From the NCBI GenBank assembly GCA_021498125.1, contig JAIZWL010000001.1, positions 385,434-449,433 on the forward strand: a stretch of 64,000 nt of DNA, read 5' to 3'. Numbering within the stretch: position 1 is the stretch's first letter; every line of letters begins with the position of its first letter. The position numbers and the translations under genes are program-made. The notes beneath the pieces were generated by a model. The model was given only the letters and a program-made list of their open reading frames with translations. It was not told where the DNA came from and searched no databases. This DNA is from Candidatus Thorarchaeota archaeon. GTDB lineage: Archaea > Asgardarchaeota > Thorarchaeia > Thorarchaeales > Thorarchaeaceae. Positions 13,936 through 63,737 of this stretch are shown here, piece by piece.

Positions 13936-14493
13936 ATGCCAGTTATTGAAATCCGATGGCACGGCAGAGGTGGACAAGGCGGAGTGACCTCCGCAGAGCT
14001 GTTGGCTAAGGCCGCCTATTATGACGGATACAAAGGTGTACAAGCGTTCCCCTACTTTGGTGCAGAACGTCGCGGGGCACCTGTAAAGGCCTTCACAAGA
14101 ATCTCAGACCGGGAAATCAATGTCCGGAGCCAGATCTACGAACCCGATATTGTTGCAGTATTAGACCCAGGAATTGTTGACCTCATTGATGTCACTGAGG
14201 GTCTCAAAGATGATGGGAAGATCATCATCAATACTCACAAACGCCCTGACGAATTTCATTTCGAGCGTGGTCATGTCTATACTTATGATGGAACTGGGAT
14301 TGCCCTCAAACATGGCCTTCTTGTTGCTGGTCTCCCTGTTGTTAATACTACTATGCTTGGTGCCTTTGCTAAGGCTACTGGCTTGGTCAAACTTGAGACC
14401 GTTCAAAAGGTGATCATGGAGAAATGGCCTGGCAAGGTTGGCGAGAAGAATGCGAAAGGTGCCAAGGAAGCCTATGACTTCTGCATAGATTAA
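13936..14493 (+). CDS. porC: 2-oxoacid:ferredoxin oxidoreductase gamma subunit (PorC-like)
   Basis: 185-aa gamma subunit of pyruvate (or a related 2-oxoacid) ferredoxin oxidoreductase. Clear motifs: IRWHGRGGQGGVTSAELLA at the N-terminus, FPYFGAERRGAPVKAFTRI near residue 40 and VNTTMLGAFAKATGLV near residue 135. The enzyme decarboxylates 2-oxoacids to acyl-CoA with reduction of ferredoxin. The alpha, beta and delta subunit genes that normally follow are absent: the next gene is on the opposite strand. ATG 13936 has AGGAG at 13922. The exact 2-oxoacid cannot be read from the gamma subunit. Confidence 0.92.
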   Translation: MPVIEIRWHGRGGQGGVTSAELLAKAAYYDGYKGVQAFPYFGAERRGAPVKAFTRISDREINVRSQIYEPDIVAVLDPGIVDLIDVTEGLKDDGKIIINTHKRPDEFHFERGHVYTYDGTGIALKHGLLVAGLPVVNTTMLGAFAKATGLVKLETVQKVIMEKWPGKVGEKNAKGAKEAYDFCID

Positions 14494-50403: not shown

Positions 50404-51384
50404 CTACTCTTTATTCTTGAACAACTGAGAGGCTTCCTCTCTGCTTAGATCTTTGGAGTACCAGATTCTTCCATAGTGTTCCTCATATCCGATTGACTCA
50501 TACATTTTACGAGCGGGCATTGCAGACTCATTTACCACAAGTTCGGAAATTTCAATTCCTTTTTTGTATGCTCGCCAAAGTACTTCTTCAAGGATAGTCT
50601 TCCCAAACCCATGGCCACGGTATTCCGGAAGTACTCCTATTCCCTGTATTAGTACACGACGTTTTTGATCTTCTGTTGACGGTGCAAACACCAGGCCAAG
50701 GCAATATGCCGCAGGTCTTCCGTCTACAAGTCCCAAGAGAAAGAGCTCTGGATCATAATCGGGTCTATTTCTTATAGTTGTAAAGTCGGCCTCTGATGCA
50801 TCCTGATATTGATAATTCCCATGAAATATCAGATTCTGCATATCCGCCCAAATTTTGGCGTCTGTGTTCTTCATCTCTCTCAGAGTAAAGCCTTCAACGG
50901 TGTCAGGTCTTTTTATTCTGCTCAGGTCGGGGTGAGAGAGCTTGAGCCATTCGCTTATGCGTTTGAATCCTCTATGTGCAATGAATGATATACTGTATTC
51001 CTGATACGATGGGATATTACAGGTCATGATTTTGATTGCGTTTTTACTTGATAGACGTTCAAGTTCCCCAAGCAGTTTAGTGCCTATACCTCTCTCTCGG
51101 AACTCGGGATGAACCATTCCGGTAATGTATGCCTCTTCCGGATTAGACCTCTCAGGGCGCCATGTAGCAATTCCAATCAACATACCATCAATAGTTCGGG
51201 CTGTGATCACATTTTCTTTGAGATCAAGTCTAAGGTGATGATAACTATTCCTAAAGAACTCCCCGTCTAAATCGGCATGATCCGGATTATCCCAACCACT
51301 TACGGCATTGTACAACTTTGCCATATCATCATACATATCTTGATATCCTGTCTCTATAGAGATATTCTCGTTATGTATCATCAA
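50404..51384 (-). CDS. Tandem GNAT acetyltransferase
   Basis: 326 aa with two GNAT domains. The N-terminal one has the acetyl-CoA loop HPEFRERGIGTKLLGELE (motif A), the C-terminal one LPEYRGHGFGKTILEEVLWRAYKKG followed by the Asn-x-x-A...YxxxGY ending (NESAMPARKMYESIGYEEHYGRIWY). The tandem layout recalls mycothiol synthase MshD, but the substrate is unknown. ATG 51384. Single gene, facing the RNA-like region. Confidence 0.92.
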   Translation of the reverse strand: MMIHNENISIETGYQDMYDDMAKLYNAVSGWDNPDHADLDGEFFRNSYHHLRLDLKENVITARTIDGMLIGIATWRPERSNPEEAYITGMVHPEFRERGIGTKLLGELERLSSKNAIKIMTCNIPSYQEYSISFIAHRGFKRISEWLKLSHPDLSRIKRPDTVEGFTLREMKNTDAKIWADMQNLIFHGNYQYQDASEADFTTIRNRPDYDPELFLLGLVDGRPAAYCLGLVFAPSTEDQKRRVLIQGIGVLPEYRGHGFGKTILEEVLWRAYKKGIEISELVVNESAMPARKMYESIGYEEHYGRIWYSKDLSREEASQLFKNKE

Positions 51385-51469
51385 ACAGCCTCATCTATTT
51401 TCTTTCTATTGTCCTCTAATAACCTCGTCAGTTTCTCGAGAATACCGTACATAAATGATTAATTAGGGG

Positions 51470-53152
51470 ATGAATCAAGAGTATTCTGACAGTATTTCTA
51501 AGGTGGCCCTCTTGATACACAATACCTTTCTAGTCCGCGAATCAACTAATGAGATACTTGCAACAACTCAATATTGGCCAATTACTGTTGATTTGAAGGA
51601 TCTAGAAGAATTTGTTACAACAAGGGCCGATCTGAAAAAGTCAGATGCGACGATTCAAGAAATCCCACTTGTCATTGGAGATCACAAGTATCATGGGTGG
51701 ACCGTTCTTCCTGATTATCTTCTTGTGTTCGTTACTGATGCTCAAGAAGACGAATCTGCTATTTTTGAGCGCATGAGCAAAGCCGCATCTGCACTTAAAA
51801 AACGCATTAAGAAAGTTGGATTAGAAAAGACGATAGATGAGTATGTCTCCCTTATTGAGCCATCCATTATCACACGTCTGAAGATTGCCTTAGTAGGTGA
51901 AGGTGGTGTGGGAAAGACAACCACACTCCATCTGCTCCTTGGTGATACACCGCCAACTCAGTACGTTCCAACGATTGCACTTAACCTTGAAACCGTTGAG
52001 AACATACGCTTTGGAAATTACTCCTTGGTCCTCTGGGACTTTGCAGGACAAGAGCGTTTCCGGAACCTCTGGAAATTCTATTTTCATGGTGCTGATGTTA
52101 TCTTCTTGGTCTGTGACTCTTCCTTGCGAAACATACTGATCAGTAAAGATATTCTCAAACTCATCCGGCGTGACGCTCCGAAGGTCCCCGTTTTTGCTTT
52201 GGCAAATAAGCAAGATTTGCCTAATGCAATGAAGCCCGAGGTCGTTCAAAAGATCCTCGGAGTACCCACGTATCCGATGGTGGCTATCGACAAAGAGCGT
52301 CGTGATGAGATGCTCCGGATTCTGATGAACGCTGCTGCGCAATATGTCGGAATTGCACTTCCCGACCTGCCCGCGTCGGAACTTCTACGGTTCAGTAATG
52401 AGGCCGCCAGTGCAGCATCTAAGATGGAACATCTTGGAAGCATGGCTGCTGAAGAATCAGATGAAGTTGAAGAAGATGAAGATGCTATCTTAGTTGATGA
52501 CGAAGATATTGAAATTGATGATTATGAGACCATTGAGATTGTTGAAGAAGTACTTGTTGATGAAGACGGTCACATTATAGAGGACGGCGAAGATTACGAA
52601 ATCGTCGAAATTGTTGAAGAGGTCATTGAGGACGACTCTGAAGAACCCGGGGAGGCATCTGCAACTGTCGAGGAAGAGCAACCTGAGGTTGTGACCGATT
52701 CTACAACCCCTGCCGTTGCCAGTGAACCTTCTGTTGAGTCCTCTCCCAGTAAAGATGCTGGCGGATTGGAAGAACCATCTACTTCGGCCCCTGACGAATT
52801 GGCCCAAGGAATTGCTGATGTGCTCATCTCTGACAGGACTGCTGCTGCTGAAGATGTTGTTGATGAATCACATGAGGCCACTCAAGTGTCTGATGAGATA
52901 CTACAGATTCTAGACTCCGATGATATAACAGTTGATGAGAGTGAAATGAGTGACGTTCCGTCTCCTGAAATTAAAGAAGAGGAGGCAACCGATCTGGACA
53001 AGATTCTGGGATCTCTTGATGACAAGCTAAATGACATTCTGCGTGAGGTCTCGGAAGATGAGGATGATACAGCTGACGCCGAAAGCCCCGATGAGGTCGA
53101 TAGTGAGACTATTGAACATATAAAACGGATAATTGACTCAGATGGCGATTGA
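51470..53152 (+). CDS. Longin-Arf-like GTPase fusion with acidic tail
   Basis: 560 aa in three parts. Residues 8-120 look like a longin/profilin-like domain (SKVALLIHNTFLVRES..., YHGWTVLPDYLLVFVTDAQEDESAIFERM, then helix). Residues 137-295 are an Arf/SRbeta-like GTPase: P-loop GEGGVGKTT (143-151), Thr of switch I in YVPTIALN, DFAGQER (190-196), NKQD (246-249). Residues 325-560 are a disordered, very acidic tail with a repeated YE(T/I)(I/V)EIVEEV unit and Glu-rich helices. Longin domains in eukaryotes control vesicle GTPases in trans; here they are joined. ATG 51470, preceded by GGGGATG. Confidence 0.85.
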   Translation: MNQEYSDSISKVALLIHNTFLVRESTNEILATTQYWPITVDLKDLEEFVTTRADLKKSDATIQEIPLVIGDHKYHGWTVLPDYLLVFVTDAQEDESAIFERMSKAASALKKRIKKVGLEKTIDEYVSLIEPSIITRLKIALVGEGGVGKTTTLHLLLGDTPPTQYVPTIALNLETVENIRFGNYSLVLWDFAGQERFRNLWKFYFHGADVIFLVCDSSLRNILISKDILKLIRRDAPKVPVFALANKQDLPNAMKPEVVQKILGVPTYPMVAIDKERRDEMLRILMNAAAQYVGIALPDLPASELLRFSNEAASAASKMEHLGSMAAEESDEVEEDEDAILVDDEDIEIDDYETIEIVEEVLVDEDGHIIEDGEDYEIVEIVEEVIEDDSEEPGEASATVEEEQPEVVTDSTTPAVASEPSVESSPSKDAGGLEEPSTSAPDELAQGIADVLISDRTAAAEDVVDESHEATQVSDEILQILDSDDITVDESEMSDVPSPEIKEEEATDLDKILGSLDDKLNDILREVSEDEDDTADAESPDEVDSETIEHIKRIIDSDGD

Positions 53153-53228
53153 GTCGGTTGCTGTTCGTGCTTTTCGTAACACTGATACGTAGAACTGTAA
53201 TTGATGTTCAGAGGCGTTTCAAGTGAAA

Positions 53229-53573
53229 ATGTCAGATGTTGAAATAGGTAAGAATGTTGAAGAGTTGACTGTCAGAATTATCTCTGTAGCACCTCCACGA
53301 ATGATGAGCACACGTTCCGGGCGTAAGACACAATTGACAGAAGTCTTGGTCGGTGATGAAACTGGTACGGCCATCCTAAGTCTTTGGGGTTTTGGAGAGG
53401 CCAACAATCTCTCGGCTGGAAAAGTGATTAAGATCACAAATGGTTGGGCCAAGGAATGGCAGGGGAAGATGCAGTTATCACTTGGGCGTTCGGGAAAGCT
53501 TGAGGAGGTCCCAGATGATGGAACTCTTCCTGAGATAACCGCGCTGCTCAATAGGGGTGGTTCACAAAAATAG
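53229..53573 (+). CDS. OB-fold single-stranded nucleic acid-binding protein (SOSS-B/RPA-like)
   Basis: 114 aa. Single OB-fold: VEELTVRIISVAPPRMMSTRSGRKTQLTEVLVGDETGTAILSLWG, then KVIKITNGWAKEWQGKMQLSLGRSGKLEEVP. The VGDETGTAxLxLW segment is typical of archaeal SSB and of SOSS-B1. Lacks a long acidic tail. ATG 53229. Stands between the GTPase and deoxyribosyltransferase genes; DNA-repair role by family. Confidence 0.88.
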   Translation: MSDVEIGKNVEELTVRIISVAPPRMMSTRSGRKTQLTEVLVGDETGTAILSLWGFGEANNLSAGKVIKITNGWAKEWQGKMQLSLGRSGKLEEVPDDGTLPEITALLNRGGSQK

Positions 53574-53603
53574 ACGGAACTCTCTCAAGAGGCAGTGGAC
53601 GTA

Positions 53604-54101
53604 ATGACAAAGGCATATCTCTCAGGGCCTATCATCCACGATGATTTACGTAAAGACGATTTTTATAGGATTGTTGTGGAAACACTGGAATCTGTTGGTA
53701 TTGAGGTGTTTGCCCCGCAATTCCTACCCCGTGATTCCCCTAAGAGGATTTATGCTCGTGATGTTGCTGCTGTTCGTCTAAGTAACTTTCTGGTGGCTGA
53801 GGTCAGTAATCCCTCATTGGGGGTGGGAATGGAGATCATGCTGGCAATTGAGCATATGATCCCAGTTCTGCTCTTCCGGGACTCACGAGCTTCCACGCTC
53901 TCATATATGGTTCAAGGTGCCGATGGTACTGTACTATTTGATTACTCTTCGCTTGATGAGGTTCGCGCAATTCTCTCCAGAATGCATCTTGATGCGCTCT
54001 TGGTAAAGAGATGTGAAAAGTGTGAATCCCAAGTTGCAGAGGTTGATGAGGTAGGCCTCCACTGTGTGAAGTGCGGTTACTATTTTCAAGTTGAGGAATG
54101 A
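53604..54101 (+). CDS. Nucleoside 2-deoxyribosyltransferase-like protein with zinc ribbon
   Basis: 165 aa. N-terminal NDT/RCL fold: KAYLSGPIIHDD, FAPQFLPRDSP, IYARDVAAVRLSNFLVAEVSNPSLGVGMEIMLAIE with catalytic Glu, and IPVLLFRDS. The C-terminus adds CEKCESQ...CVKCGYYF, a zinc ribbon not found in the usual enzymes. Acts on N-glycosidic bonds of deoxynucleosides or as a 5-hydroxymethyl-dUMP hydrolase (DNPH1-like). ATG 53604. Overlaps the next gene by 4 bases (ATGA). Confidence 0.86.
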   Translation: MTKAYLSGPIIHDDLRKDDFYRIVVETLESVGIEVFAPQFLPRDSPKRIYARDVAAVRLSNFLVAEVSNPSLGVGMEIMLAIEHMIPVLLFRDSRASTLSYMVQGADGTVLFDYSSLDEVRAILSRMHLDALLVKRCEKCESQVAEVDEVGLHCVKCGYYFQVEE

Positions 54102-55060
54102 TCCCAATGCTCTCAACCCAGTTACGTACTGGTGTAAATCTACGTGTTGTTCTCTTACTGCTCTTGTCAGTGTCTATGGTTTCAAGTGCCAGTATTCTGA
54201 TCCGATTTAGCACCTCTCCACCACTTGTCATCGTCTTTTGGCGGACTCTTCTTGGGGCCGCTGTGATGGGCGGTATTGGACTTGCTCGTGGAGATCACAG
54301 AACATATTCTTCTGACTTGTTGCATGATAACTGGAAGTGGCTGATCTTTATTGGTGTGGTTCTCTCACTTCACTTCTCAACATGGTTTACCTCACTGTTT
54401 ATGACAACGGTGGCCGCCAGTGTCGTTCTTGTTAATACCTCTCCTATTCTCACTGGTGTTCTCTCCACACTACTTCTTGGTGAATCTCTCAGGCGGCGTT
54501 CGTGGATCGGGATTATCATTGCTGTTTCCGGGGCTATATTCCTTGCATGGAGCGATCTTGTGCAGTCCGGATTTGGAGCTCTTCAAGGTGATCTCCTTGC
54601 GCTCCTCTCAGCACTGTTTCTTGCGATTTATTTTATTGGTGGCAGGCGCTATGCAATAGGTCTCCCGATCACAGTATACACATCTATAGTCTATCTGACC
54701 GCTGCATTCTGTACATTAATGATATGTCTTGTTGCAGGACTCAGTATAGTTGTTCTCGAACCGACCGAGATTGTGATCTTTATTGCTCTTGCAGTATTCC
54801 CTACAGCACTCGGGCACTCTGTGAATAACTATCTTCTCACGATCGTACCTGCACATGTGGTCTCATCGGCAGTTCTTGGTGAGCCTGTAGGCGCTACACT
54901 TCTTGCAGCAGTGTTTTTGCAGGAGACTCCTCGGCCAATCACAATAGTATGGTTTAGTGTCATCCTACTGGGTATTGGTGTTGTCATCTCCGATCTCGCA
55001 TCACAACAACGAGATTTCGATGCTGCTCTTTTATCCCTTGATGACCCCGATGGGCCGTAG
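54098..55060 (+). CDS. EamA/DMT family transporter
   Basis: 320 aa, ten hydrophobic helices arranged as two EamA repeats: VSSASILIRFSTSPPLVIVFWRTLLGA and its counterpart FLAIYFIGGRRYAIGLPITVYTSIVYLTAA; ends of repeats at TSPILTGVLSTLLLGESL and LGEPVGATLLAAVFLQETP. Exports or imports small metabolites; cargo unknown. ATG 54098 overlaps the preceding stop codon. Its 3' end overlaps convergent rtcB by 30 bases. Confidence 0.92.
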   Translation: MIPMLSTQLRTGVNLRVVLLLLLSVSMVSSASILIRFSTSPPLVIVFWRTLLGAAVMGGIGLARGDHRTYSSDLLHDNWKWLIFIGVVLSLHFSTWFTSLFMTTVAASVVLVNTSPILTGVLSTLLLGESLRRRSWIGIIIAVSGAIFLAWSDLVQSGFGALQGDLLALLSALFLAIYFIGGRRYAIGLPITVYTSIVYLTAAFCTLMICLVAGLSIVVLEPTEIVIFIALAVFPTALGHSVNNYLLTIVPAHVVSSAVLGEPVGATLLAAVFLQETPRPITIVWFSVILLGIGVVISDLASQQRDFDAALLSLDDPDGP

Positions 55061-56485
55061 TCGTACGACCTTCGTTGCGATCCCCACCGAGTCTGAGACC
55101 TTGACTACCTCGTCAACGTCCTTGTAAGCGCCAGGAGCTTCTTCAGCAATACCGATTGCTTTTGGAGATTTCACAATAATTCCTTCACCTGCAAGCTTTC
55201 TTTGGACTTCGCGACCGTGATAGATTGATTTGGCCTTTCTTCGGCTCATGAATCTTCCAGCACCATGAGCTGTTGAACCAAAGGAGAGTTCCATAGACTT
55301 CTCATTGCCCACCAAGATGTATGAGGCGGTACCCATAGTTCCCGGAATTAGGACTGGTTGTCCAATATGCTTGTACTTGGCCGGGGTCTCAGGATGATTG
55401 GGTGGGAATGCCCTTGTGGCTCCTTTTCTATGAACTACGACCTTTCTACGTTTGCCATCTATAGTGTGTTCCTCGACCTTGCCCATATTGTGAGCTACAT
55501 CATAAATCAGTTGCATATCAAGATCTTCTGGAGATTGGCCATACACCTTTCCGAACACTTCTCGGGCCCAGTGCATCATTGCCTGTCTGTTGGCCCACGC
55601 AAAGTTCGCTGCAGCACTCATTGCAGCCAGATAATCTTGTCCTTCGGGAGAGGTGGTTGGAGTACTGCATAGTTCTCTATCTGGGACTTCTACTCTGTAC
55701 TTTCTCATGGCCTGTGTCATGACCTTGATGTAATCACTACAGACTTGATGCCCTAATCCTCGCGAGCCGCTATGGATCATTACTGTGACCTGTCCCACAT
55801 GGTCAAGACCCATTGCCTTTGCTGCTCTCTCGTCATAGATTTCGTCTACCATCTGGATCTCTAGAAAATGGTTACCAGACCCAAGTGTGCCGACCTGGCC
55901 ACGCCCGCGCGCCTTTGCCTGAGCCGAGACCTTTGTTGGATCCGCAAATTGTAGATTTCCTCCCGCCTCTGTGTGTTCCAGATCCGACTCCCAACCCAGG
56001 CCTTGCTCTATTGCCCATTTTGCTCCGGATCGGAGTACCTCGTCCACGCCACGATTGCCTTGCAGATTGATCTTGCCAGTCCGACCAACTCCGGTTGGAA
56101 CGTCGGTGAATAACTGATCAATGAGTTCGTGGATCTTCGGGCGGATATCATCGACATCGAGATTGGTCCTCATGACTCGGACTCCACAATTGATATCGTA
56201 TCCCACACCACCTGGTGAGATCACTCCCTCTTCGTAATCGGTGGCTGCAACCCCACCAATTGGAAATCCGTATCCTTGATGGCCATCTGGTAAAATAATG
56301 CTCCGCGTGTAAATCCCGGGGAGGCAGGCAACGTTCGTTCCCTGTTGGAATGTTGCATCCTGTCCCATCTTTTTGATGAGCGCATCTGATGCGTAGATTC
56401 TGACTGGGACCCTCATACATTCTTGCGTACCCTTGGGGATCTCGTAGATGTTGTCGTCAATCTTTTTGATTTCCACACGCTTCAC
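55031..56485 (-). CDS. rtcB: RNA ligase RtcB
   Basis: 484-aa GTP-dependent 3'-phosphate RNA ligase, the archaeal tRNA-splicing and repair ligase. Motifs: LPDGHQGYGFPIGGVAA, GGVGYDINCGVR (metal Cys), GTLGSGNHFLE (nucleotide site), MIHSGSRGLGHQV and the guanylylated His in GSTAHGAGRFMSRRKAK. No intein interrupts it, although rtcB is a common intein site. GTG start. Confidence 0.97.
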   Translation of the reverse strand: MKRVEIKKIDDNIYEIPKGTQECMRVPVRIYASDALIKKMGQDATFQQGTNVACLPGIYTRSIILPDGHQGYGFPIGGVAATDYEEGVISPGGVGYDINCGVRVMRTNLDVDDIRPKIHELIDQLFTDVPTGVGRTGKINLQGNRGVDEVLRSGAKWAIEQGLGWESDLEHTEAGGNLQFADPTKVSAQAKARGRGQVGTLGSGNHFLEIQMVDEIYDERAAKAMGLDHVGQVTVMIHSGSRGLGHQVCSDYIKVMTQAMRKYRVEVPDRELCSTPTTSPEGQDYLAAMSAAANFAWANRQAMMHWAREVFGKVYGQSPEDLDMQLIYDVAHNMGKVEEHTIDGKRRKVVVHRKGATRAFPPNHPETPAKYKHIGQPVLIPGTMGTASYILVGNEKSMELSFGSTAHGAGRFMSRRKAKSIYHGREVQRKLAGEGIIVKSPKAIGIAEEAPGAYKDVDEVVKVSDSVGIATKVVRLRPIGVIKG

Positions 56486-56521
56486 ATCCTGATTAAGCCA
56501 AGCGCTATAGTGTCATAATTG

Positions 56522-56529
56522 CTATAAGG
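56522..56529 (+). promoter_or_regulatory. TATA box and 5' hairpin of selD
   Basis: CTATAAGG would start transcription near 56550, right at a perfect hairpin GAGCTC-gtca-GAGCTC (56550-56565). GGGAGGT follows at 56578-56584, then the GTG start at 56595. Confidence 0.45.
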
Positions 56530-56594
56530 CTTATGACCCGTCCCTCGTCGAGCTCGTCAGAGCTCTCACAACTGAAAGGGAGGTAGATTACCAG

Positions 56595-57629
56595 GTGCCG
56601 AATGTAAGGCTCACTGCAATGGTCACAACACACGGCTGAAGCTGCAAGGTCAAGCAGGATGATCTCACACGCCTTCTTCAGGCTGCGGGTCTATTGCCAC
56701 CAGATGCCTCGCGCCATGGCGATATCGGGGATGATGCAATGGTTCGTATCATCAATGACAACATGGCCGTTGTTGAAAATGTTGATGTCTTCACACCGAT
56801 ATATGACGATCCCTACATACAAGGTAAGATTGTGGCTTGCAATGCCACCAATGATCTCTTTGCAATGGGCGTCACTAACATTGTGTCCCTTCAGGCCTTT
56901 CTTGCCTTTCCGAAAGACATGCCGCAAGACATCATTGTCGGTGTGTTGAAGGGAATGAACGATTTCATGAAAGTCTTTGGTGTAGGCATCACTGGCGGTC
57001 AAACGATAACTAACCCCTGTCCCGTTCTTGGTGGAATATGTTTGGGTGTGACGCATCCTCGTCATCTCATTCATTCATCAGGAGCTCGTCCCGGTGACGC
57101 CGTTCTTCTCACAAAGCCGTTAGGGATTCAACCAGCAATGCGTTCCTATCGTGATCTCCAGAACGAAAAGAGGGATGCGTTACTTGCGCGCTTTGATGAG
57201 TCCGAACTTCGCTGGATGCAAGAGGTTTCGGTTCGAATTATGACCCACAGTAACTTAGAGGTCGCTGAGGCAATGCGTTCGGTGGGTGTCGATGCGGCCA
57301 CCGATGTCACAGGATTCGGTCTACTGGGCCATGCAACAAATGTTGCTGTGCTCAGCGAAGTGGATATTCTCATTCACCGAGTCCCTGTCATCCGTGGAAC
57401 GCTTGAATTGGCGCGTTTCTTCGGTCATCGCCTGTCTGAAGGATTTGGCGCTGAAACTGCCGGGGGTATGCTGGTATTTCTGCCAAAGGACCGTGTGGGT
57501 CAGTTTGTAGATCTCTTGGCCGAAGATGGTCTACCCTGTTGGCCTATTGGAGAGGTTGTTCCTACTACTGGATCACCTCATGCACGACTTGCCGATGATG
57601 TAGAGTATATTGAGACCGAGTTCCCGTGA
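56595..57629 (+). CDS. selD: Selenophosphate synthetase SelD, selenoprotein with in-frame UGA
   Basis: 344 aa if TGA at 56637-56639 is read as selenocysteine (residue 15). The reading frame upstream of the obvious SelD body runs GTG 56595 (GGGAGGT 10 bases before) through TTHG-U-SCKVKQ, and the Sec falls at the catalytic Cys/Sec position of SelD (HGxGC in E. coli; HGUxCK in selenoprotein SelD). Downstream parts are typical: HGDIGDDAMV, VDVFTPIYDDPYIQGKIVACNATNDLFAMG, GITGGQT and DVTGFGLLGHA. SelD makes selenophosphate from ATP and selenide, so the cell should have selenocysteine machinery. A stop-only reading would give an N-terminally cut, inactive protein. Confidence 0.9.
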
Positions 57630-57641
57630 AACTATCTTAAA

Positions 57642-57721
57642 CCAGTTGGCCGGATGGTTGAGGATTTCCGCCGCAAGCGGACGGTCTCTCTCTGATTGCC
57701 TGATTCTCTTCTGTCTGCTGG
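57642..57721 (+). promoter_or_regulatory. Candidate SECIS-bearing hairpin in the selD 3' region
   Basis: Twelve bases after the selD stop, nested pairings CCAG/CTGG, GGC/GCC, GAGG/TCTC and TCCGC-cgcaa-GCGGA can form a long irregular hairpin with an internal loop. Archaeal SECIS elements sit in the 3' UTR and consist of an interrupted stem with a GC-rich apical part. The canonical GAA...A internal loop is not evident, so this is a weak call based on position and the need for such an element. Confidence 0.25.
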
Positions 57722-57728
57722 CACGAGG

Positions 57729-57893
57729 CTATTGTTTGAGGAGATGGTATATCCGGTTAATGAGTTCGTCAATGCCTCTCAATGGAGTCAGGTCTATCTC
57801 TGGATCGATGAATTTACGAAGCACTTCTTTTTCTTCTTCGCCAAGATCGTGAAACAGTCTAAATTCCTGTTCAGAGGTCTGTATTTCAGCCAC
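57729..57893 (-). CDS. Small ORF, 54 aa, helical
   Basis: GTG 57893 to TAG 57731-57729. The product is acidic and helical: EIQTSEQEFRLFHDLGEEEKEVLRKFIDPEIDLTPLRGIDELINRIYHLLKQ region, with coherent amphipathic helices. A TATA-like TATATTATA on the minus strand (57921-57930 on the plus strand) lies about 33 bases upstream, fitting a leaderless or short-leader message. The opposite-strand reading frames here look like shadows. Family unknown; coding is likely but not certain. Confidence 0.5.
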   Translation of the reverse strand: MAEIQTSEQEFRLFHDLGEEEKEVLRKFIDPEIDLTPLRGIDELINRIYHLLKQ

Positions 57894-58094
57894 ATAACTT
57901 CGCCTTATGACGATATCTTGTTATAATATACGCTATTTGACGATTTAACTTCTTGCATTTGAAGTTGACGAGTTTCTTTTCGACGCAATTTTTGGGGCGA
58001 AGATGATTCATGAACTATACAAGGGCAAATCATTTAACACTGGATGGATTAGCAAGAGTAACTAAACATAGTGCAGCAATGCAGGTGCAGGCGA
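57894..58094. promoter_or_regulatory. Divergent promoter region with inverted repeat
   Basis: Between the 54-aa minus-strand ORF and the plus-strand GTPase gene. Minus TATA at 57921-57930; a dyad AACTTC-ttgcattt-GAAGTT (57947-57966) lies between the two promoters; a plus-strand TATA-like CATTTAACA is near 58031. Position suggests shared control. Confidence 0.4.
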
Positions 58095-58799
58095 ATGAAG
58101 ATAGTTGTAACGGGACCTTATGCTGCTGGGAAGAGTCTGTTGATTCACAATATCACAGAGGGTGCATGCATTAATATTGAGAGGAACGGTACGACCATTG
58201 CAATGGATCATGGAGTTGCCAATGTTGACGGGATGAGTGTATTCCTTTTTGGTACCCCGGGTCTCTTGCGTTTTCGTACAATGCGCAAGATTTTGAGCGA
58301 GGGTGCTGATGGCATCATCTTTGTTGTTGACTCGGCAGATAAGGAATCAGATGCCCGTGCAAAGTTGTTCTTTAGAGAGATTGCATTTTTCCTCCCGGGA
58401 GTGCCATGTGTTGTTGCAGCAAATAAGCAAGATCTTGACGAGGCTCGTGCTGTTGACAAGATGCGGGCGGATATGCGATTTCTGGCAGGCGTTCCGGTCA
58501 TCCCATGCTCGGCCGAGACTGGTCATAATGTGGATAATATGCTGCGCACATTGCTCTATTTGGCAATGATGCAATGGAGCTCGGTCTTTGTCAAATTTGC
58601 AGAGTATAGTGGAAAACGCGATGGTCTCAAGAGGTTAATGGACGATCTCAACATGGATCGCGCACAGGCAGTTGGCTATCTTCGACGATTCGAGCTTCGA
58701 AAGCTATTGGAAGTCCAGCTGGGTGATGAACAATTTACAGTCTTTGATGATGTCAAGCCGCTCATGGAGAATCCAACTCTTCTCATGAGGCGTACATGA
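58095..58799 (+). CDS. MglA/SRbeta-like small GTPase
   Basis: 234 aa. GTPase domain of the MglA/Rup group: P-loop GPYAAGKS (8-15), switch I region TTIAMDHG, G3 FGTPGLLRFR (in place of DxxGQ: the catalytic Gln is Leu), G4 ANKQDL and G5 PCSAETG. The last 70 residues form an extra helical domain (FVKFAEYSGKRDGLKRLMDDLNMDRAQAVGYLRRFELRKLL). The missing Gln suggests that hydrolysis relies on a partner, as with MglA and its roadblock MglB. ATG 58095 with AGGTG upstream. The next gene encodes a TPR protein, and a roadblock gene starts at 63832. Confidence 0.9.
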   Translation: MKIVVTGPYAAGKSLLIHNITEGACINIERNGTTIAMDHGVANVDGMSVFLFGTPGLLRFRTMRKILSEGADGIIFVVDSADKESDARAKLFFREIAFFLPGVPCVVAANKQDLDEARAVDKMRADMRFLAGVPVIPCSAETGHNVDNMLRTLLYLAMMQWSSVFVKFAEYSGKRDGLKRLMDDLNMDRAQAVGYLRRFELRKLLEVQLGDEQFTVFDDVKPLMENPTLLMRRT

Positions 58800-58861
58800 G
58801 GTCAAGTAGAAAGAATCAAAAGCCAGCCACATTGCCTCTGCACCATACTGAGGTGAGTGCT

Positions 58862-59719
58862 ATGTCCGAAAATGAAATGGTTGACCTCGATCCCACAGAA
58901 CTGTTGGAGCATGCAACGGCCGCCAAAGAGGCTGGCGAACTGTCTGAGGCAGCTAAGTTGTTCAATGCTGCTGGTAATGTCTATATGTCAGTGGCTGAGT
59001 ACGAAGAGGCTCTACATGCCTTTGAAACATCACTTGATCTCTATCGACAGCTTGAGGACGGAGCTGGCGTGGGTGATGCATTGTATAATATCGGCCTGGC
59101 ACAGATCAATCTAGAGAAGTGGGATGAGGCAGTCAAGACCTGTGAAGAGGCAGTGAATCTCTTCAAGAGTGCCTCAAACAATGAGGGTTCGGCGGATGCA
59201 CTCTATGCACTTGCACTTGCTAAGCTTGGGCAAGGAGAATTTGACGAGGCTCTTGATCTCTTCAAGAAAGCACAAAGGGCGTACAAGACTCTTGGCAATC
59301 AGCAGGGTGTTGTGAGCACGATCGTTGACATTGGTAACGCCTATGCCGAACGTGAAGACTGGGTGAATGCTGAAAAGATGTTCAAGAAGGCTCTCAAGAT
59401 TTATCAGGAGTTGGACGATGCCGCAGGGATCGCAGACATCTATTCTCTTCTAGGTGATATTGCTGAAGTCGGCAATAATCAAAAGAAGGCGGCCGAATAC
59501 TTTGTCGAAGCCGCAGAGCAGTATGTCCGTGCTGAAATTCTTGATGTTGCCCGTGAGGTTGTAGAACGTGCCGAGAGCAAGCTCTGGGACATTCCTAAGG
59601 CGACACGTCGGCGTCTCAGAAAACGGGTTGATGATATCATTGACAACCTGCCAGAAGAGACCATGACCGATGATGATGATGAGTTTGATGAGGACTTGCT
59701 CGGGATCACCGATGTATGA
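58862..59719 (+). CDS. TPR repeat protein
   Basis: 285 aa. At least six canonical TPRs: EAAKLFNAAGNVYMSVAEYEEALHAFETSLDLYRQL, ALYNIGLAQINLEKWDEAVKTCEEAVNLF, ALYALALAKLGQGEFDEALDLFKKAQRAY, VDIGNAYAEREDWVNAEKMFKKALKIY and DIYSLLGDIAEVGNNQKKAAEYFVEAAEQY. Ends in an acidic tail (TDDDDEFDEDLLG). Resembles LGN/kinesin light chain type scaffolds. ATG 58862 with AGGTGA 11 bases upstream is preferred over ATG 58796, which overlaps the GTPase stop. Confidence 0.9.
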   Translation: MSENEMVDLDPTELLEHATAAKEAGELSEAAKLFNAAGNVYMSVAEYEEALHAFETSLDLYRQLEDGAGVGDALYNIGLAQINLEKWDEAVKTCEEAVNLFKSASNNEGSADALYALALAKLGQGEFDEALDLFKKAQRAYKTLGNQQGVVSTIVDIGNAYAEREDWVNAEKMFKKALKIYQELDDAAGIADIYSLLGDIAEVGNNQKKAAEYFVEAAEQYVRAEILDVAREVVERAESKLWDIPKATRRRLRKRVDDIIDNLPEETMTDDDDEFDEDLLGITDV

Positions 59720-59748
59720 TCTTTTGCATTGACAACTCGGTGGTCTTC

Positions 59749-59783
59749 GCGGCCGACTGACTGATTGGCCGGCTGGCTAGCTG
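59749..59783 (+). repeat. Short tetranucleotide-rich stretch upstream of the C25-like gene
   Basis: GGCCGACTGACTGATTGGCCGGCTGGCTAGCTGG consists of degenerate CTGA/CTGG tetranucleotides and a GGCC pair. It lies in the 139-base gap before the 1292-aa gene. No function assigned. Confidence 0.5.
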
Positions 59784-59858
59784 GCACCTTCATCGTGGAA
59801 AACTCTATTTGAATAGGGTGGACATTGGGATTATTCCCCTAGGAAGGAGTGCCACGGA

Positions 59859-62800
59859 ATGAAACCCTCTATTGCCATGACCACTAGTATACTTCTCGTA
59901 TTTGTCATTCTCTCTCAGACAATGATGATTGCTGGTTACCACAATAACGATGATCTCTCACGCAGTACGATGGGGACACCACTGATCTCGGGGATTCCCG
60001 CGGCAAATCAGACCCCTCTTCAAATGGTCACAGTAGTAGCCTCTGATCCGGCCTCCTATCTCGACGAGTTCTCATACATGGCCGCAGTTCCCTCCGCAGT
60101 GTTCTATGATGGCAGTACTCAGTACCTCTCTCCTCTCATCTTGAGTGATGGTTCGCAATCCGAAAAGTGGTTGCTTGAAGACTGGGCAGAATATCTTGGA
60201 CCCGATGGTGGGACCAAACAGCTGCGCATAATCGGCGATGTTCCGTCCTCTCGTGTTGCGGATTTTCGTAAGACTCTGGGCACTTCGGTCTTTCCATATA
60301 TTCCTAGCAAGGACCCTGATGAGGTTGCAGCAATGCTGGCGGTGTCAGACTGGCAGTCCTCCGACATTGCGGTATTTGCGCTTTCGAGATTGGCTATAAC
60401 TTCTCCTTCGTCCTTGACGGGTAGCTCCTCTTTTTCCTTCCAGAACGACCCGATGCAAATTGAAAGTAAGACCGTGACTGTGAGTTCGACTAATCCAGTC
60501 ACACTCAACTTTACGCCACCTGCTGGAACTGGTTGGATCGAGGGGTCTTTTGACTGGCCAAGTTCGTCACTCTATTTTACGCATATCCTCACAGATCCAC
60601 AGGGTCACATTGTTGATTATTCAGTTCGGAGCCAGACCTATCAAGAGCGTTTCTCTTCCTATGTTAGCAGCCCCGTCCCCCTCAAGTTCTGGCTTCCAAA
60701 TACTAATGCCGGAGAATGGAAACTGACCCTTTTCCCCGAGGCAAGTGTTAGCTCACCCGTGACCGTCACTGGATCACTCATCTATCATCCAGGTCATACC
60801 GAAACCGTCGTCGTCCCTGCGAATGCCAAGTCCCTGTCCCTAAATGTCAGCTGGGACAATAGCGCCACTGATCTCAATGTTGCACTGATTGATCCGACTG
60901 GTAGGCTTGGAGCTTGGGCGCCAGCCGGAAGTATAATTGCCAATCCGGGTTTTGAGAGTGTGCATGTTCCGTATCCCATGGAGGGTACGTGGACTGCAAT
61001 AGTGTCTTGGATGAATGCGACCTCTGAGCATAACGGTGTGGAGATGGTCTGGGACGTTACCACGATCTCCCCTGAAGTAACACCGTATTTGGAGTCAGCT
61101 GCGAATGGAGCAGTTCTTGCCTCCCTTCTCAATGCGCCTCTTCTCTATGTCACTCCCGATTCAATTCCTGAAGTGACCCAGTGGGCTATCGATCATCTTG
61201 GTGTCACTACCAGTTTTCTTGTTGATCCGGCATCACTGCATACTTCAAGTCTTACCTCTGCATTAGATGCGTTCTCCTTTGTCAATAACCTCAACAATTA
61301 CAAACTTGTGTCCCAGTGGATCCAAGCTCTCTCGAAGAGCCATGATGTTGTCGTCACGGTCCCTCATGGTAATGGCGACGAGCTCTTTGCTCCAGCTGCC
61401 TATTCCGGTGCTGTCCATGGGGCGCCTGTATTCTCTCTGTGTGGGGACAACAATCAACTGACATCATATGCGGAGGCGACATGGGCTCCTTATCTCATTG
61501 GTCCCGAGATTGATATCTACGTGACCAGTCGTTATACTACTCGCACAGAAAACGGATGGTATGATGAGCGAATCCCCAACCGTTATACTATGCAACATAC
61601 TGCGAGCAGCTTTGAGACCTTTTTGGATGATCGTGGTGCCTACAATGCAACCGCGCCGCAATCAGTAGTGGTTCTTGCCTCAGTGGATGAGATCAAACCG
61701 AGTTTTGATAGATCTATCCAGTCCCATTTCGCACCGGGACGCATTCCCGCCAAGACCGCGGCATTGGCCTCGACAATGGTCACACGGGCCGCACTTCATA
61801 GATTCCTGTTCCGTGTTGCTGATTCCGCTGATGATGCGCTTGTCTCTATGTACGCCTATACTGAAGATGCTGGATTTGTGGACAATAATTTCGATTACTA
61901 TATTGTTGATCAGTACGAGAATTCCACCAGCATGATGGAGGACGCGGGGTTCAATGTGGAGACTCACATTGGATATCAGGAGGTCTTCTCGACTATAGCA
62001 TCTCAGGTTGCGCTCTGGACCTTTAGTACCCATGGTAGTCTTACCCGGTATCCCACCGACCCCCCTGATCGACCTGATGGCGCTGGTCTCTTCTCTCTCC
62101 GCGACATTGATGCACCTTATGGTATGGAGACCTCAACAGCCCGTGATGCTAATGGGGATCATCTTGTTAATCCTGTTCTCTATGAAGAGGAGAGTACCCA
62201 CCATCGTATCGAGAGCACCGAGAACCTTGAAGCGGCCATCGGAGATATCGGGTCGCCAATCGTAATCATAACGGCATGTCTTCTAGGGGGGACACGTCTT
62301 CCTAGTATGATGATGGAACATGGTGCAGTTGCAGTCATGGCATCTCCTAGGACAGTCTATTTCCAGCCAGCGGCGATGCTCTCCCTTCTCGTGATGAAGA
62401 GTCTGACAGAGGGAACAGATACTGGGTACGCACTCAGTCACGCTCTGTCAACAATATCTACTGACTATACTGATCCATTCCCCAGTGGTGACCCACGCGA
62501 TTATGCGAACCAACACATACTCTATGGTGATCCCGGTGTCCATCTCTACGAGCCTGGCTCTACACCACGAGTGACTGCTCTCAATCCCAACACACTGTCC
62601 ATCAATGGTCATGTTCCCAGCCATGGTCTTCCCGATGTTGCCGCATTGGGCTCGACCGACTATCTTCCCACAGCATTAGAACATAATGCGATCAGTTTTG
62701 ATTTTTACAATGCCGCTAACTTTTCAGAGTTTGTCCGGTTCATAAGCCTCCGCCGGACGGTCATTATTGAACCCGGCACTATTAGTTCATTTTCTACTCT

Positions 62801-63737
62801 TCTCGCACAAAACCGTGACGCATTAAGTTCCTTTGTCACGAGTGGCGGCACACTCGTTGCATTGGGGGTGACCTCTTCAATTACTTGGCTCCCGTGGTCT
62901 GTGACCTATAATTCAACATCGACCAGTCAAAATGTCACAATTCTTGATCCGGGCCATCCACTAGTATCAGTTCCGAATGTATTGTCAACCGGGCTTTCTT
63001 ACAGTGGGATGTTCACACGATTCTGGGCAAACTTCACAGTATTAGCCGAGTCACCCTCCGGTGATCCCGTGCTCATCGCTTCCACAATTGGATTTGGTAA
63101 GGTGGCATTGACCACAATTAATCCTTCCACCTCATTGCGTGACTCATTTATTGAGAATGTAGTATCTTGGAGTAGCCAACCATCCATCATACTTGAAAAG
63201 ATAACCCTGAGCGAATATGTGATCTGGGGTGGCGATCACTTTACCATCACTCTCTATCTCGATGATGGTCGTGGTCATGGGCTCTCTGGTGCGACTCTTC
63301 GTGTCCTGATCAATGATACTGATGTATCGACCATGATCCATGAGGAAGGATCTGGTATCTACACCATTGCCATATCATCCGACTGGACCAATCAGCACCA
63401 AGGTATCTTCTGTCTGGAGGTTTATGCATCTAAGACCGGATATGATACACTTACTGCATTTCTTCCAAAGTTTGTCTATATCCGTCCCTCTCCATGGTTG
63501 GCCATTGGTGTCGTGGGTGGAGTCTTTGCACTCTTCGTGGGATTGTATGTATACAGGAAACGTAAACTCGGTGAGCCCCTCTTCGAACTCAGGCGTCCGA
63601 AAAAGCCTAAGCCGCGCCGCACCTCAGGATTTGTTTCCTCTTCCCGTCCTATCTCAAAAGAGGAGGCCGAGCGTTTAAGGAAAGAACGTGAGAAGAAAGA
63701 ACGCGAACGCGATCTCAAAGACTATTTTGGAGTGTGA
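59859..63737 (+). CDS. Giant C25 (gingipain-like) surface protein, 1292 aa
   Basis: Signal peptide at the N-terminus (hydrophobic helix about residues 8-28), a long extracellular region and a C-terminal transmembrane helix (about 1222-1243) before a basic cytoplasmic tail (RRPKKPKPRRTSG...). Peptidase C25-like catalytic region at residues 640-900: ALWTFSTHGSL (His725), VIITACLLGGTRLP (Cys807), VMASPRTVYFQ and ILYGDPGVHLYEPG, the GDP motif after the Cys. Residues 240-400 look like beta-sandwich modules. A glutamine-amidotransferase-like fold may exist at 930-1080 and a beta domain at 1150-1210. ATG 59859 after AGGAAGGAG. Protease function is inferred. Confidence 0.85.
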   Translation: MKPSIAMTTSILLVFVILSQTMMIAGYHNNDDLSRSTMGTPLISGIPAANQTPLQMVTVVASDPASYLDEFSYMAAVPSAVFYDGSTQYLSPLILSDGSQSEKWLLEDWAEYLGPDGGTKQLRIIGDVPSSRVADFRKTLGTSVFPYIPSKDPDEVAAMLAVSDWQSSDIAVFALSRLAITSPSSLTGSSSFSFQNDPMQIESKTVTVSSTNPVTLNFTPPAGTGWIEGSFDWPSSSLYFTHILTDPQGHIVDYSVRSQTYQERFSSYVSSPVPLKFWLPNTNAGEWKLTLFPEASVSSPVTVTGSLIYHPGHTETVVVPANAKSLSLNVSWDNSATDLNVALIDPTGRLGAWAPAGSIIANPGFESVHVPYPMEGTWTAIVSWMNATSEHNGVEMVWDVTTISPEVTPYLESAANGAVLASLLNAPLLYVTPDSIPEVTQWAIDHLGVTTSFLVDPASLHTSSLTSALDAFSFVNNLNNYKLVSQWIQALSKSHDVVVTVPHGNGDELFAPAAYSGAVHGAPVFSLCGDNNQLTSYAEATWAPYLIGPEIDIYVTSRYTTRTENGWYDERIPNRYTMQHTASSFETFLDDRGAYNATAPQSVVVLASVDEIKPSFDRSIQSHFAPGRIPAKTAALASTMVTRAALHRFLFRVADSADDALVSMYAYTEDAGFVDNNFDYYIVDQYENSTSMMEDAGFNVETHIGYQEVFSTIASQVALWTFSTHGSLTRYPTDPPDRPDGAGLFSLRDIDAPYGMETSTARDANGDHLVNPVLYEEESTHHRIESTENLEAAIGDIGSPIVIITACLLGGTRLPSMMMEHGAVAVMASPRTVYFQPAAMLSLLVMKSLTEGTDTGYALSHALSTISTDYTDPFPSGDPRDYANQHILYGDPGVHLYEPGSTPRVTALNPNTLSINGHVPSHGLPDVAALGSTDYLPTALEHNAISFDFYNAANFSEFVRFISLRRTVIIEPGTISSFSTLLAQNRDALSSFVTSGGTLVALGVTSSITWLPWSVTYNSTSTSQNVTILDPGHPLVSVPNVLSTGLSYSGMFTRFWANFTVLAESPSGDPVLIASTIGFGKVALTTINPSTSLRDSFIENVVSWSSQPSIILEKITLSEYVIWGGDHFTITLYLDDGRGHGLSGATLRVLINDTDVSTMIHEEGSGIYTIAISSDWTNQHQGIFCLEVYASKTGYDTLTAFLPKFVYIRPSPWLAIGVVGGVFALFVGLYVYRKRKLGEPLFELRRPKKPKPRRTSGFVSSSRPISKEEAERLRKEREKKERERDLKDYFGV

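Follow-up and report, generated by a model that had tools for sequence, protein, structure and literature searches.

The selD gene of the window (the whole stretch of 64,000 nucleotides of Thorarchaeota DNA that was analyzed) contains two in-frame UGA codons, one at residue 15 and one at its end, and the locus therefore raises the question of how one UGA of an mRNA could be read as selenocysteine (Sec) and another as stop. The original prediction, made from the sequence alone, was that this SelD is itself a selenoprotein. The elements on which it was based were all recovered, including the frame open through the internal TGA from a GTG start that is preceded by a Shine-Dalgarno sequence, and the position of this TGA at the catalytic Cys/Sec site (Table 1). 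As had also been predicted, the bacterial-code ORF list shows only 56694-57629 (311 aa, TTG start) at selD, which means that a standard gene caller would lose the active site of the protein.

With Cys put for Sec, the predicted protein matched NF010705 with 302.7 bits (cut-off 291; residues 3-340) and TIGR00476 with 217.4 bits (cut-off 125); both curated SelD equivalog cut-offs were exceeded and nearly the whole protein length was covered. Solved selenophosphate synthetases were matched as well (Selenide, water dikinase 1, E 4e-47) and, as judged from these sequence matches, the SelD fold is secure. The catalytic G-U/C-x-C-K motif is present as HG-U-SCK at residues 13-18 and is kept in the orthologs, one of which has Ser for the second Cys; this thorarchaeal SelD (L016) reads U-S-S-K instead of U-S-C-K and has thus lost the second conserved cysteine. 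Relatives with 77% and 67% identity are from Thorarchaeota MAGs, and the source assembly itself comprises 3.1 Mb with an estimated completeness of 98%. In the neighborhood (50404-63737), RtcB adjoins selD divergently, and two GTPases of the Arf/Ras type, a TPR protein and a protein of 1292 aa that weakly matches C25 peptidase are encoded around these two genes.

The internal TGA could be a true stop that breaks the gene, or a sequencing or assembly error for TGC or TGT, given that a standard ORF caller stops at this codon and that the assembly is in 14 contigs. Among 47 genomes of the order, however, 35 full-length SelD orthologs (63-100% identity, the one in the window included) each have exactly one internal stop, which is TGA at codon 15, and a further selD that is split over two contigs has the same single TGA. 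Since this TGA recurs in every full-length ortholog of the other assemblies (63-78% identity), sequencing error, which the original prediction had named as a possible refutation, is excluded; the orthologs thus already refute this explanation, which retains a negligible probability. The frame and the start upstream of the TGA are also conserved, and the genome encodes a Sec machinery. Among the matches listed from 227 Asgard genomes, all full-length SelD that are free-standing have TGA at this site and none has Cys. The third positions of the codons around UGA-15 (56634-56655; GGC UGA AGC UGY AAG GUC) are unusually conserved, in the orthologs too, and RNAalifold found no structure next to UGA-15 of the kind seen in bacterial SECIS; these conserved codons perhaps represent a local recoding context. 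In many lokiarchaeal genomes (G156-G192), two Sec selD genes were found close together; multiple selD copies have been reported earlier (Huang 2024, PMC11227280).

The TGA had been taken to imply a working Sec system, and a search of the rest of the genome found all four components looked for, tRNA-Sec (with anticodon TCA), PSTK, SepSecS and EFSec, clustered in approximately 4.3 kb of another contig (C3). The genome thus combines these components, with PSTK under its curated cut-off, with an in-frame UGA that lies at the Cys/Sec site and is conserved in orthologs, as is characteristic of archaeal selenoproteins. A gene for L7Ae is present in the genome as well (159.7 bits). A second selenoprotein, a 52-aa VhuU with the motif YDC-U-LSCGAH (C5:53274-53429; about 2706-2864 of L132, genome G000), was found by a strict Sec motif, while a looser pattern over hydrogenase and FlpD loci was uninformative. 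This VhuU is a separate small subunit, as in Methanococcus voltae.

Table 1. Features of the selD locus (positions in the window) and of the Sec gene cluster on contig C3 of the same genome.
Feature	Position	Strand	Remarks
Shine-Dalgarno-like GGGAGG	56578..56583	+	11 nt before GTG start; from sequence; GGAGG-type motif also upstream in orthologs
selD CDS	56595..57629	+	344 residues, Sec at residue 15, GTG start, TGA stop
In-frame TGA, predicted to be read as selenocysteine	56637..56639	+	residue 15, HG-U-SCK; TGA in 35/35 full-length orthologs of the order
Basal stem P1, 5' strand GAGACCG	57612..57618	+	in last codons (GAG ACC G); pairs with 57682-57688
Kink-turn C-stem, 5' strand TCC	57622..57624	+	last codons; RNAalifold on 36 sequences; invariant but for one cell, no covariation
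SECIS core GUGA	57626..57629	+	57627-57629 doubles as terminal stop; TGA in 36/36 thorarchaeal selD
SECIS hairpin	57630..57659	+	single-sequence fold agrees
SECIS NC stem	57630-57636 / 57653-57659	+	both-sided changes at 7/7 pairs
A-rich bulge (UUAAA) of SECIS hairpin	57637-57641	+	
Ministem (CC/GG) of SECIS hairpin	57642-57643 / 57648-57649	+	
SECIS core GA	57660..57661	+	sheared-pair partner of G57628 A57629; GA 35/36, AA 1/36
Kink-turn C-stem, 3' strand GGA	57662..57664	+	RNAalifold
Hairpin B, CCGC-CGCAA-GCGG, NGYRA-type loop	57668..57680	+	100% of cells paired; shared by lokiarchaeal selD and thorarchaeal vhuU
Basal stem P1, 3' strand CGGTCTC	57682..57688	+	3' UTR; covariation, RNAalifold, single-sequence fold
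PSTK	C3 128889-129560		131.4 bits, below curated cut-off of 290.5; sole match, inside cluster
tRNA-Sec, anticodon TCA	C3 129645-129731		62.4 bits, Rfam cut-off 47
SepSecS	C3 130465-131733		454.7 bits
EFSec	C3, ORF of 466 aa		283.8 bits

The SECIS element of selD, for which the original prediction had suggested a covariance search, is present at the 3' end of the gene and covaries. It forms a three-way junction that consists of a basal stem (P1), a kink-turn SECIS hairpin and a second hairpin (hairpin B), and in thorarchaeal selD the terminal UGA supplies half of the sheared G.A core. RNAalifold predicted this junction from the alignment alone in three separate sets, comprising 36 thorarchaeal selD, 29 lokiarchaeal selD and 21 thorarchaeal vhuU sequences. 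In the thorarchaeal selD set, where cells are counted by sequence and do not represent independent events, 91.1% of the cells of the whole element are paired, compared to 30-43% when the partners are slid by 1-3 columns. Compensatory changes occur at 14 of the 20 pairs, including all four pairs of hairpin B and 3/7 pairs of P1 (99.6% of cells paired), and the covariation score was reached by none of 500 shuffles. Compensation in P1 links coding sequence and UTR (ACC/GGT to ACT/AGT, ACC/GGT to GCC/GGC and GAG/CTC to GAA/TTC), and the Phe codon preceding the last SelD residue is TTC in 35/35 sequences. The near-invariant UCC/GGA stem with a 3-nt bulge reads as a compact, canonical kink-turn, a reading that, because the C-stem is invariant, is based on conservation, with the full geometry lying outside the covariation support.

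The minimum free energy fold of the element in the window is also the three-way junction (-27.5 kcal/mol), with a shuffle z of -1.86 that is modest for this sequence alone, as 10 of 200 shuffles fold as well. The P1 pairs form in the minimum free energy fold of each of the 36 sequences. Folds of the 3' UTR only, from 57630 or 57642, gave a different structure without significance, which indicates that the fold depends on the 5' strand of P1, a part of the coding region. No Rfam family matched in the window at gathering thresholds. A strict junction descriptor matched 26 of 40 selD genes from outside the thorarchaeal set and none of 800 simple base shuffles; as inspection by eye traced one of the misses to the strict stem rules, covariation was used instead.

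The identity of the residue inserted at UGA-15 cannot be read from sequence alone, and a reassigned or near-cognate tRNA could insert another amino acid, such as Cys or Trp. This alternative is nevertheless very improbable in view of the presence of tRNA-Sec(TCA), SepSecS and EFSec and of a SECIS at the 3' end of the gene. Moreover, selD itself ends in TGA, as do 36/36 of its orthologs, and UGA is thus not a general sense codon in these organisms. The kink-turn could also serve another purpose than Sec insertion. Archaeal mRNAs are regulated by L7Ae through kink-turns, and as L7Ae is present in this genome, the motif could mediate feedback control by this or another RNA-binding protein while a different determinant directs Sec insertion. 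We consider this highly unlikely since the module ends two unrelated selenoprotein genes, and the selD covariance model (R1) finds no other gene in 227 genomes. This model identified one site per genome, at selD, in 36/36 genomes with Sec-SelD, in addition to a selD remnant in G029; because the 36 selD sequences are its training set, only the absence of other sites and the G029 site are independent results. The G029 genome (L054; G029:C381, about 14029-14114), in which full selD and SepSecS matches were not found, keeps the last selD codons and an intact SECIS, which represent either a vestige of Sec use that has been lost or a join made in assembly.

Hairpin B could likewise be a separate element unrelated to Sec insertion, for example a transcription terminator or a processing site; hairpins end many genes, and T-rich tracts are often found 5-20 nt after the element in the orthologs. 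Against this, P1 encloses both hairpin B and the SECIS hairpin, and the position of hairpin B within the junction and its loop are kept across selD and vhuU and across the thorarchaeal and lokiarchaeal genomes while the stem sequences differ, which makes a separate element improbable, though less so than the two alternatives above. In the lokiarchaeal selD set, 94.0% of cells are paired (25-48% when slid) with compensatory changes at 15/20 pairs. The corresponding values for thorarchaeal vhuU are 92.1% and 9/28; P1 shows one-sided changes only in this set, and its support there is hence from pairing and not from covariation. The loop of hairpin B has five bases, which are of NGYRA type in many members of all three sets (CGCAA, TGCGA, CGCGA and TGCAA); exceptions exist, among them the TGCTC of some vhuU. 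The vhuU genes resemble thorarchaeal selD in that the stop UGA lies inside the SECIS core, and hairpin B follows in the vhuU of the window genome. By comparison, the lokiarchaeal selD element is located wholly after a TAA or TAG stop, indicating that function does not generally require the terminal UGA arrangement.

Taken together, it is very probable that selD encodes a Sec-containing selenophosphate synthetase in which UGA-15 is decoded via the archaeal/eukaryal route, directed by the three-way junction at the 3' end, while the terminal UGA acts as stop by melting of this structure. The reading frame, the components of the Sec machinery, and the RNA structure with its covariation and its breadth are read from the sequence; from them we infer that Sec is inserted, that a protein binds the element and that melting decides between the two UGAs. 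The catalytic residue of the enzyme would be Sec, and SelD, as the selenium-donor enzyme, would then need its own product. tRNA-Sec charged with serine would be converted to Sec-tRNA by PSTK and SepSecS and delivered by EFSec, and the signal for UGA-15 would be the RNA at the 3' end, approximately 1 kb downstream. We know of no SECIS-binding protein in archaea. As suggested by the motif, a kink-turn binder would recruit EFSec; L7Ae is plausible in this role because Asgard archaea reportedly lack SBP2 (PMC11227280). By the time a ribosome reaches the terminal UGA, it must presumably have melted P1 and the core, and the terminal UGA would consequently be read as stop and UGA-15 as Sec. The position of the stop codon within the SECIS core would thus provide a testable answer to how one UGA specifies Sec and another stop in the same mRNA. 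The second arm, which is shared by thorarchaeal and lokiarchaeal genomes and by selenoprotein genes as unrelated as selD and vhuU, is a specific candidate for the site that the missing factor, or the ribosome, would contact.

The function of the protein, synthesis of selenophosphate from selenide and ATP, is a prediction that receives indirect support from genomes in which a Cys form may take its place. Sec-SelD is missing in 11 of the 47 genomes of the order. Six of these (G018, G026, G032, G036, G038 and G039) retain SepSecS and encode a fusion of cysteine desulfurase and SelD with Cys at the catalytic site; among the 36 genomes with Sec-SelD, the fusion was found in G004 only. This imbalance (6/11 vs 1/36; Fisher one-sided about 2.7e-4, with kinship ignored) is unlikely to be due to chance, and the Cys fusion is likely a replacement of the selenoprotein SelD. 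The fusions (L118-L124) have a NifS-like cysteine desulfurase part and a length of approximately 750 aa; their hosts mostly lack Sec-SelD and keep SepSecS.

A different interruption was observed in the selD genes of six genomes (G120-G125; L061, L063, L070, L073, L114 and L115), which have an insert with an in-frame TAA after the codons for NDVY; this insert explains the TAA that is found in addition to the TGA in five of the full-length free-standing Asgard SelD listed. The insert is 30-31 nt long in the four genes in which it was measured (two of the six were read by eye), with 31 nt and a shifted frame in G121. It folds as a bulge-helix-bulge (BHB) with 3-nt bulges, a 4-bp helix (GUGU/GCAU) and a covarying stem. 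When it is cut within the bulges, the sequence NDVYA(I/K)G is restored, in agreement with other SelD. The insert probably represents an intron of the tRNA type (BHB) within a protein gene, as has been described for cbf5 in Crenarchaeota (PMC2738675).

The original prediction was right that Sec-SelD and Asgard selenoproteins were already known (PMC11227280). SelD is the commonest selenoprotein of Sec-using Asgard archaea, Sec-SelD of Thorarchaeia has been published, and the SECIS of thorarchaeal selD has been assigned to type II, its core being GUGA_GA (Huang et al. 2024, PMC11227280). These features agree with our results. The element described here, with its GUGA/GA core, 7-8 bp stem, CC/GG ministem and UUAAA bulge, corresponds to the eSECIS-like type II of Asgard archaea, defined by a GA_[G/A]A core, an upper stem of 7-15 bp, a ministem of at least 2 bp and an A-rich bulge (Huang 2024). 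The published model consists of the core, the upper stem and the apical part, with G[A/U]G_C[U/A]C lower-stem pairs noted in selD, whereas the second hairpin is not mentioned in the main text (PMC11227280). A stop UGA that overlaps the SECIS core has been reported for Lokiarchaeia, with Mariotti 2016 as the cited source. Neither a second hairpin nor a three-way junction was found for Asgard SECIS in the main texts and the literature search covered here, and within this scope both appear to be new.

Other known systems share parts of this arrangement. The NifS-SelD and NADH dehydrogenase-SelD fusions (Mariotti et al. 2015, PMC4561486) have the SelD domain in common with the gene in the window, which is free-standing and has Sec, whereas the cysteine desulfurase fusion carries Cys at the catalytic site. 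The euryarchaeal SECIS (eaSECIS) of Methanococcus also lies in the 3' UTR of archaeal selenoprotein genes, selD among them, but its GAA_A internal loop is absent from the consensus of the 36 thorarchaeal sequences.

The SECIS of Asgard archaea is a proposed link to that of eukaryotes. Our results somewhat favor the view that Asgard SECIS were ancestrally three-way junctions, with a compact kink-turn hairpin and a conserved hairpin with an NGYRA-type loop on a basal stem; that in thorarchaeal selD and vhuU the stem extends into the coding region and the core contains the stop codon, such that the terminating ribosome would unfold the recoder of the upstream UGA, an arrangement that would be undescribed; and that the eukaryotic SECIS, which has one arm fewer, could descend from this structure. 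The type II SECIS of eukaryotes shares the tandem sheared G.A core (kink-turn), the A-rich bulge, the ministem and the action from the 3' end. SBP2, in contrast, is reported absent from Asgard archaea, and while a eukaryotic SECIS lies wholly in the 3' UTR, the coding sequence of thorarchaeal selD includes the 5' strand of P1 and half of the core. The element of thorarchaeal selD thus differs from its eukaryotic counterpart by a stop codon in the core, a partly coding basal stem, a compact kink-turn with a 3-nt bulge and a second hairpin that turns the structure into a three-way junction.
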